Source of the DNA: Candidatus Cloacimonadota bacterium
GTDB taxonomy: Bacteria; Cloacimonadota; Cloacimonadia; Cloacimonadales; Cloacimonadaceae
NCBI GenBank assembly: GCA_018433885.1
Contig: JAHDQK010000003.1
Span: forward strand, 1 to 64,000
Length of the DNA stretch: 64,000 nt
Reading direction: 5' to 3'
Position numbers and translations under genes: made by a program. The notes under the pieces were generated by a model. It ran no database searches and was not told the origin of the DNA. It saw only the letters and a program-made list of their open reading frames with translations. This document shows positions 23,331 through 25,129 of this stretch, one piece after another (within the stretch, counting starts at the first letter, position 1; every line of letters starts with the position of its first letter).

Positions 23331-24491
23331 CTAAACCAGTTTCTTGATCTTCTCCCAACTGAAGCCATGGGTGTTCAAACCAAAATGGCCGTAACTCGCT
23401 GTGGGCAGATAGATCGGTGTACGCAGATCAAGGTAATCGATGATTCCCTTTACTGTCAAGTCAAATTCCCGGGTAATGATCCGCTCGATCTCATGATCCG
23501 GCATTTTCCCGCTGCCAAAGGTTTCCACCATTACGCTTACCGGAGCTTTATCGCCAATCACAAAACTGAACTGGATCAGGCATTCATCCGCCAGATGGCT
23601 GCCCACGATGCTTTTGGCTACGTGGCGTGCCATATATGCTGCGCTGCGATCCACTTTGGTGGGGTCCTTTCCACTGAAAGCTCCACCGCCATGTTGCGCC
23701 CAACCGCCATAGGTATCCACGATTATCTTGCGCCCCGTAAGCCCGGTATCCGCCGCGGGACCTCCATCGTGCCAGCGTCCCAAGGGATTGATCAGCACCT
23801 TCAGCTTGGCTGCGTCAAAGCGGACCTCGTTCTCCATCTCATTGATGGTGGGATACACGATTTTGTTGATTATCGCTTGTTTGAGATCCTCAAACCCCAT
23901 CTCACAGATCGATTGATGATGGGTGGAGATCACCAAGGTTTCCAGCTCCTTGGGCTTCCTGCCCTCAAAGCGGAAACTTACCTGGCTCTTGGCATCTGGC
24001 AAAAGACACTCAATCTCGTTCATCTTGCGGGCTTGGGCAAGGTTATATAGTAGCTGGTGCGCCACCTCGATGGGGATCGGCATCAGCGATTTTGTCTGGT
24101 TGCAGGCGTATCCGAACATCAAGCCTTGATCCCCGGCTCCCTCGTTTCGCGCAAGATCTCCCTCCTGCTCGTGCAAAAGATTGATGATGCGGCAGTTATG
24201 ATCAAACCCCTTGTCAGGATGCGTGTAGCCGATCTTACGGATCACATCCCTTACGATTGGCTCTACATCGATGGTTTTCTGCGAGGTAATCTCTCCGGAG
24301 AGGATCACTGTGTCTTTGGTGGTAAGAGTTTCACAAGCCACCCTGTTCAGAGGATGCTGACCCAGATACGCATCCAATATGGCATCCGAAATCTGGTCAC
24401 ACACTTTATCCGGATGACCTTCGGATACGGATTCCGAAGTGAAGATATAGCCATTTCCGGGTCCCGCTGTCTTTGCGTGTAATGCAGTCAT
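23331..24491 (-). CDS. metK: S-adenosylmethionine synthetase
   Basis: It forms AdoMet from methionine and ATP. The length of 386 residues is typical. Motifs are FTSESVSEGHPDKVCDQISD, GAGDQGLMFGYACNQT (the GAGDQG signature) and GGGAFSGKDPTKVDRSAAY. TTAGGAGAATATAC precedes the ATG. It is first in a leftward series running into kdsA, kdsC and the lpt genes. The 170-base leader upstream has competing hairpins (see the leader entry), so control at the RNA level is possible. Confidence 0.97.
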   Translation of the reverse strand: MTALHAKTAGPGNGYIFTSESVSEGHPDKVCDQISDAILDAYLGQHPLNRVACETLTTKDTVILSGEITSQKTIDVEPIVRDVIRKIGYTHPDKGFDHNCRIINLLHEQEGDLARNEGAGDQGLMFGYACNQTKSLMPIPIEVAHQLLYNLAQARKMNEIECLLPDAKSQVSFRFEGRKPKELETLVISTHHQSICEMGFEDLKQAIINKIVYPTINEMENEVRFDAAKLKVLINPLGRWHDGGPAADTGLTGRKIIVDTYGGWAQHGGGAFSGKDPTKVDRSAAYMARHVAKSIVGSHLADECLIQFSFVIGDKAPVSVMVETFGSGKMPDHEIERIITREFDLTVKGIIDYLDLRTPIYLPTASYGHFGLNTHGFSWEKIKKLV

Positions 24492-24660
24492 GTATATTCT
24501 CCTAATTTTTTATATCCATTTTCCGCCCATTCTGCCGGATACAAAAATACCGGCAGCTAAAGCCGGTCACAAAGGAGCCGCACTTTAGCACATTTCTATA
24601 GCGGAGCAAAGGGCAAATTACCGCTATCTGGCTTTAGCGAAGCTCTTGGGCTTCACATCC
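24492..24660 (-). promoter_or_regulatory. Structured metK leader, candidate riboswitch or attenuator
   Basis: Read on the minus strand, the leader has small hairpins (GAAGC/GCTTC and CGCTA/TAGCG), then a hairpin ACCGGC-TTTAGCT-GCCGGT (24549-24567) followed by TATTTTTG. Its 3' arm can instead pair downstream as TGCCGG/CCGGCA (24533-24555), so the two helices exclude each other. The loop of the first hairpin (CTTTAGC, 24556-24562) is complementary to an upstream GCTAAAG (24583-24589), which allows a pseudoknot. No known SAM riboswitch class was recognised. Structure is read by eye only. Confidence 0.4.
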
Positions 24661-24802
24661 TGTATCTTAAGTGTATTCCCACTCAAGAAGTGTATATTGG
24701 CGCTATCTTTATTACCCCCTCAAAATCGGTCAAGGGAAAAATCAGCCCTTGGGGACGAAACCGTTCATAGCGAAGCCCCTCGTTAGGATGCCACACGACC
24801 CC

Positions 24803-25053: not shown

Positions 25054-25129
25054 TGGTACATCTTCGGGGACTCGAACCCCGGACCCACTGATTAAGAGTC
25101 AGTTGCTCTACCAGCTGAGCTAAAGATGC
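25054..25129 (-). tRNA. tRNA-Lys (CTT anticodon)
   Basis: This is a 76-nt cloverleaf including an encoded CCA. The acceptor stem GCATCTT pairs with AAGATGT. The D-arm is AGCTCAGCTGGTAGAGC, the anticodon stem ACTGA/TCAGT has loop CTCTTAA, and the T-arm is GGGGTTCGAGTCCCC. Discriminator base is A. A strong terminator follows at once, so the gene is monocistronic. Confidence 0.98.

Follow-up and report, generated by a model that had tools for sequence, protein, structure and literature searches.

What kind of RNA stands in front of metK, the gene for S-adenosylmethionine (SAM) synthetase, in a Candidatus Cloacimonadota bacterium? We addressed this question in a stretch of 64,000 nucleotides (contig JAHDQK010000003.1, positions 1 to 64,000; hereafter the window), for which a first-pass annotation had proposed a riboswitch or attenuator upstream of the gene. 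The leader element is real and highly conserved; with its terminator it is most likely a riboswitch for SAM, a divergent and unannotated relative of SAM-II and not a new kind of switch.

Conservation of the metK leader

The element occupies positions 24630-24542 of the minus strand and consists of an aptamer of about 53 nt followed by a terminator. The S-AdoMet_synt N, M, and C domains of Pfam are all present in the gene downstream.

23331..24491, minus strand: metK, S-adenosylmethionine synthetase, the controlled gene (ORF call and Pfam)
24499..24503, minus strand: AGGAG, the metK ribosome-binding site read from the sequence, apart from every switch helix
24578..24630, minus strand: the whole aptamer (78.1 bits with covariance model R1, which had the window copy in its training set)

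At gathering scores, tRNA was the sole Rfam match in the window, and between positions 24400 and 24900 none of the SAM families matched at E ≤ 10. The whole metK leader folds no better than its own shuffles (z = -0.97). We searched 124 Cloacimonadota genomes, found metK in 106, and read 42 metK leaders in the window's family, Cloacimonadaceae (L041, which came without leader sequence, was excluded before counting). The element was present in all 42 readable leaders, always before metK, with the consensus GCGGURAUUUGCYCUUUGCUCCGC, 5 to 7 nt, AUGUGCUAAAGYGCGG, a linker that varies, and a terminator that in most leaders has the GCCGG form; mean column identity in the aptamer alignment is 84%, with 27 invariant columns. 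GGAG is found at about equal spacing in the family leaders.

With R1, 43 of the 124 genomes had matches at E ≤ 4e-10, 46 in all; these genomes are 42 of the 49 of Cloacimonadaceae and G052, which belongs to another family of the order; the G052 copy also precedes metK and was found both by R1 and by a pattern scan. Seven family genomes lack a strong R1 match, and in six of these metK was likewise not found. No copy of the element was seen in the 27 metK leaders inspected outside Cloacimonadaceae, where metK often lies closely behind another gene; in other families of the phylum, R1 matches under 29 bits were read as chance after the top ones had been inspected. The pattern scan of genome contigs returned at least 118 loci. 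Among the matches listed, 33 score at least 47 bits with R1, all titled Cloacimonadota, Cloacimonetes, or Ca. Syntrophosphaera, and the remaining 85 score at most 22.3 bits or are unlisted at E ≤ 1. One genome, G039, has two metK copies (L006 and L031), and the element stands before both.

Proposed aptamer fold and ligand site

The aptamer is made up of a hairpin, P1, a third strand, and a second helix, P2.

24598..24627, minus strand: P1 hairpin, AUAGCGG (24627-24621) with CCGCUAU (24604-24598), 7 bp in the window (alignment of 42 leaders)
24606..24619, minus strand: AAUUU third strand (24619-24615) and P2 5' strand GC-C-CUUUGC (24614-24606); AUUU and CUUUGC are invariant in 42/42 leaders
24580..24589, minus strand: P2 3' strand GC(U)AAAG-U-GC with a bulged U at 24587; GCUAAAG is invariant in 42/42 leaders

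P1 has a computed energy of -7.7 kcal/mol in the window and covaries across the 42 leaders, with both sides changed in three of six counted pairs: one G-C pair becomes A-U in three leaders, and the next pair out occurs as five standard pair types, including C-G, A-U, G-C, and U-A. The covariation score of the whole structure (0.101 versus 0.059 in shuffles) was reached by none of 500 shuffles and lies far above that of slid versions; two cruder pair-count measures were only modestly above shuffles, being reached by 35/500 and 123/500.

P2 (GCYCUUUGC with GC[U]AAAGYGC) is 98.4% paired over the 42 leaders. Its single compensatory change within the family, C-G to A-U, occurs in the related leaders L034 and L038; six of the eight pairs are invariant or nearly so, and covariation is therefore uninformative for those pairs. 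In G052, P2a is UCACA:UGUGA in place of GC:GC, giving five Watson-Crick pairs, in register and adjoining a G.G, and the aptamer core, the terminator, and ACUUUAGU are all kept. This replacement is the best single support for the structure, and the aptamer as a whole fits an H-type pseudoknot, of which the geometry is our model.

Within the element we recognized what we take to be the ligand core of SAM-II and SAM-V: an AUUU third strand, UUGC, and a bulged U in GC[U]AAA. The AUUU, UUGC, and GC(U)AAA segments are invariant in 42/42 leaders and occur in eight comparators as well, except that L250 has GCUAAU for GCUAAA. In the SAM-V structure (PMC6061858), U47 pairs with the adenine of SAM, the sulfonium lies opposite U9 and U20, and the amino-acid end is held by A50 in its pair with A18; SAM-II is described there as binding SAM in nearly the same way. 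In our reading, the three U residues of the element would correspond to SAM-V U8-U10, its UUGC to U19-C22, and the bulged U at 24587 to the adenine-binding U47. By that correspondence, the equivalents of U8-U10, U19, U20, G21, U47, and A48-A50 are invariant in all 42 leaders. The equivalent of A18, just before UUGC, is U in 42/42 leaders and in G052, and A (six) or C (two) in the eight comparators. This U could alter affinity or selectivity; the position is tolerant among the comparators, none of which has U; as a mark that would set the element off from every strict-A SAM-II, it is weakened by the occurrence of A or C in true copies.

The ligand is most likely SAM. With U beside the ligand-holding adenosine, the same pseudoknot fold might instead serve another ligand, such as S-adenosylhomocysteine, methionine, or a polyamine, and both the constancy of that U in the family and G052, set against A or C in the comparators, and a published spermidine class reported to use a SAM-aptamer variant (PMC10853860) point that way. 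We consider this improbable: the U triples and the bulged U, which in SAM-V hold the adenine and lie opposite the sulfonium (PMC6061858), are all invariant here, C is tolerated at the position in copies from Bacteroidota that likewise stand before metK, and the product of metK is SAM itself.

Terminator, antiterminator, and the upstream tRNA

Two alternative pairings were identified that involve the region after the aptamer.

24542..24567, minus strand: intrinsic terminator, ACCGGC-UUUAGCU-GCCGGU followed by AUUUUUG (sequence and terminator scan)
24556..24589, minus strand: antiterminator, GCUAAAGUGCGG (24589-24578) with CCGGCUUUAGC (24566-24556) (complementarity and computed energy)

A simple scan of a 3-kb region found two terminator-like sites versus 2.8 in shuffles, so the window terminator alone is not above chance. 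What marks it as real is conservation, in that the aptamer is followed by a terminator with a T tail in 42/42 family leaders. GCUAAAG (24589-24583) can pair with the terminator arm and loop at 7/7 positions, G.U allowed, in 40 of the 42 leaders and at 6/7 and 5/7 positions in the other two, and sequence changes in the antiterminator core are preserved across leaders as G.U pairs. In the window, the antiterminator (-12.8 kcal/mol, versus -10.2 for the bare terminator hairpin) is complete before the 3' arm of the terminator is synthesized. Its computed stability equals or exceeds that of the terminator in only 22/42 leaders, so that equilibrium energies point to no single default state. The conserved alternatives are the pseudoknot P2, the antiterminator, and the terminator; since the same seven bases are claimed by P2 and by the antiterminator, ligand binding should favor termination.

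The first-pass annotation had drawn the switch differently, with two mutually exclusive hairpins sharing a GCCGG arm and a pseudoknot between the loop of the first and an upstream 7-mer. Its terminator-like hairpin (24567-24542) is confirmed, a terminator being present in all 42 leaders. The second, downstream hairpin (24556-24532) is strong in the window, at -14.1 kcal/mol for the stretch, but a comparable hairpin occurs in only 2/42 leaders, and it would be completed only after the U tail of the terminator. The loop complement also exists, GCUAAAG being the 7-mer, but it is more simply read as the antiterminator, extended by CGG:CCG; the supported pseudoknot lies upstream, within the aptamer, and not at the terminator loop. 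We therefore give a switch between the terminator and the downstream hairpin next to no credence. What the annotation claimed in general, a riboswitch or attenuator before metK, is well supported.

A terminator and an antiterminator could suffice alone, as a plain attenuator that responds to a protein or to the translation of a leader peptide, with no small-molecule aptamer. This is very unlikely, because the most strongly conserved positions precede the attenuator and lie in loops that correspond to the ligand site of SAM-II, and an unsystematic look showed no conserved leader peptide.

The leader is very probably a transcription-terminating OFF riboswitch for SAM, a compact and divergent variant of the SAM-II kind; sequence supports its conservation, the P1 and P2 pairing, the terminator, the antiterminator complementarity, and the gene context, and we infer the ligand, the direction of the response, and the pseudoknot geometry. 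In this model, P1 would fold in the nascent RNA, and SAM would bind P2 (CUUUGC with GC[U]AAAG) in the major groove of the pseudoknot, locking up GCUAAAG. With P2 locked, the downstream GCCGG hairpin and U tail would form and transcription would end before metK. At low SAM, GCUAAAGUGCGG would be free to pair with CCGGCUUUAGC, depriving the terminator of its 5' arm and loop, so that polymerase would proceed into metK. The terminator arrangement proposed for SAM-II agrees with this layout (PMC1273637; PMC2258182; PMC9373788).

Two further features lie upstream of the aptamer.

24705..24733, minus strand: candidate metK promoter, TTGACC-17-AAAGAT, with a weak second hexamer (our proposal; a consensus scan did not flag it)
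25054..25129, minus strand: tRNA-Lys(CTT), 430 nt from P1 in the window and followed by its own terminator-like hairpin and T run

tRNA-Lys(CUU) is found upstream in 37/42 leaders (36 by ARAGORN, plus L026, where it is cut by the contig end). In 15 of these 37 (e.g., L007, L012, L014, and L016), the CCA end of the tRNA lies 11 to 15 nt before P1, too close for a promoter to fit between them; tRNA, riboswitch, and metK are therefore probably in one transcript in those 15 relatives, and if so, the terminator of the riboswitch would serve the tRNA transcript as its end, too. Such a tRNA-switch-metK transcript is an unusual and testable arrangement. TTGACT-17 boxes occur at the place corresponding to the candidate promoter in L023, L028, and L030, all without a tRNA seen upstream. 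One could go further and propose a distinct Cloacimonadaceae subclass of SAM-II, in which a single SAM-sensing terminator both regulates metK and ends the transcript of tRNA-Lys(CUU), coupling tRNA 3' processing to the SAM level, and in which the U beside the ligand-holding A gives a binding mode or selectivity unlike that of described SAM-II and SAM-V; this stronger proposal seems to us doubtful.

Relation to known SAM riboswitches

The Rfam cut-offs for the two SAM-II models are 36 bits (RF00521) and 44 bits (RF01726). A scan of 12 of the 42 relatives (16.4 kb) with the whole of Rfam at E ≤ 10 gave just four matches to SAM families, three with RF00521 and one with RF01726; each fell on the element in the metK sense, with best scores of 19.3 bits versus 36 and 20.2 bits versus 44, respectively. 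Scanned alone, 20 of the 42 elements gave full-length RF01726 matches in 10 and RF00521 matches in 3, all in the metK sense, at 14.5 to 19.0 bits. In the printed alignments to both models, GAUUUG and GCUAAAG are in register, and GAUUUG..CC and AAAUGUGCUAAAG are matched. No SAM family was listed for the window's own copy at E ≤ 10, and searches of the window's genome with RF00521 and RF01726 hit only other, apparently chance places and not the element. RF01726 was above its cut-off in none of the 124 Cloacimonadota genomes, and its matches other than those in G122 and G093 were read as chance (L255-L258 and L127 were inspected). As a positive control, 10 genomes reached through other loci were searched with RF01726; it passed the cut-off in 4, came just under it in a fifth, and stands directly before metK in all five, which are Bacteroidota genomes. 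In the opposite direction, of six true SAM-II loci R1 recovered a single one at E ≤ 1, with 14.2 bits.

The SAM-II models match the element so far below their cut-offs (about 12 to 20 bits) that no class was recognized. Scores under the operational thresholds of Rfam make it a SAM-II-like variant and not a member of RF00521 or RF01726, and together with the recovery of one locus in six by R1, they indicate a divergent relative rather than a plain member. A new riboswitch class, as the first-pass annotation had suspected, is rejected, since the aptamer core matches that of SAM-II; the match to a known class, which that annotation had named as a refutation, is partial, with the core present and the Rfam cut-offs not reached. 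SAM-I is rejected as well: RF00162 matched in 0/124 genomes at E ≤ 0.001, and in 3 of 14 controls. Rfam matches to anti-hemB (27.1 and 26.8 bits, above SAM-II there) align mainly over the terminator hairpin and U tail and are taken as terminator matches.

Related aptamers were also observed at other loci. At L254 (1660-1501, minus strand; G093:C136, from another family of the order), two tandem SAM-II-like aptamers precede a 227-aa protein for which neither Pfam nor PHROG gave a match; the first passes the RF00521 cut-off (41.1 bits), and the second is SAM-V/SAM-II-like (29.7/29.4 bits), with AAGGAG just before the ATG. L259 (1263-1338; G122:C10, a 6.3-kb contig) carries a SAM-II-like aptamer that scores 34.1 bits with RF00521, just under the cut-off, and ends in AAGGAGG; it precedes a MoxR-like ATPase flanked by two metK-like genes, and the contig, with PHROG matches in four of five genes scanned, may be a phage. 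In a further Cloacimonadota genome, L264 (G069:C48:885-960) likewise scores 34.1 bits with RF00521, just under the cut-off. Second aptamer copies on the minus strand at L111 (2566-2618, G023) and L112 (2591-2643, G040) have CUAAGG in place of CUAAAG, so that G replaces the ligand-holding A. At L111 a terminator-like hairpin is retained, with CCUU in its loop once more a match to AAGG, and downstream lie a small ORF and a long one, the latter putatively McrB-like.

Our literature searches on riboswitches in Cloacimonadota turned up no description of SAM-II in this phylum, and the papers returned appear to concern other subjects. The element fills a gap, in that these anaerobes show neither SAM-I nor any Rfam-detectable SAM switch at metK, yet apparently place the gene under RNA control. 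It also extends the SAM-II kind to a shorter loop and provides more than 40 aligned sequences, together with the bridging copy in G052, for a better model.

Three known systems come closest to the element. One is RF01726, the long-loop SAM-II of Bacteroidota, which is listed for Bacteroidetes and marine samples (PMC2864571). Both stand before metK (5/5 RF01726 copies checked), and both run from P1 with GCGG or GUGG through GAUUUG and UUGC to a AAAUGCUAAA-like segment; the element differs in its shorter loop and linkers (GCGG-U-RAUUUG-CYCU-UUGC-U-CCGC), in having U and not A or C before UUGC, and in scoring 16 to 20 bits against a cut-off of 44. With RF00521, the alpha-proteobacterial SAM-II (metA motif), it shares one stem and a pseudoknot, and RF00521 was proposed to be an OFF switch with a terminator between P2 and the gene (PMC1273637); the element has a shorter central loop, a short P2a in the family, metK in place of metA/metX/metZ-type genes, and scores of 12 to 19 bits against 36. 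SAM-V (RF01826), first described, together with its resemblance to SAM-II, in PMC2704228, has the pseudoknot core and ligand-site residues in common with the element (PMC6061858). RF01826 gave no match to the element at E ≤ 10 in the window region, the 12 relatives, or the 20 elements alone. The element has no P3 stem-loop, P1 and P2 being separated by just 8 nt or so (AGAAAUGU in the window), and its Shine-Dalgarno sequence (AGGAG, 24503-24499) lies about 80 nt after P2 and not inside P2a; control by the element looks transcriptional, unlike that of SAM-V, which has its Shine-Dalgarno sequence in P2a.
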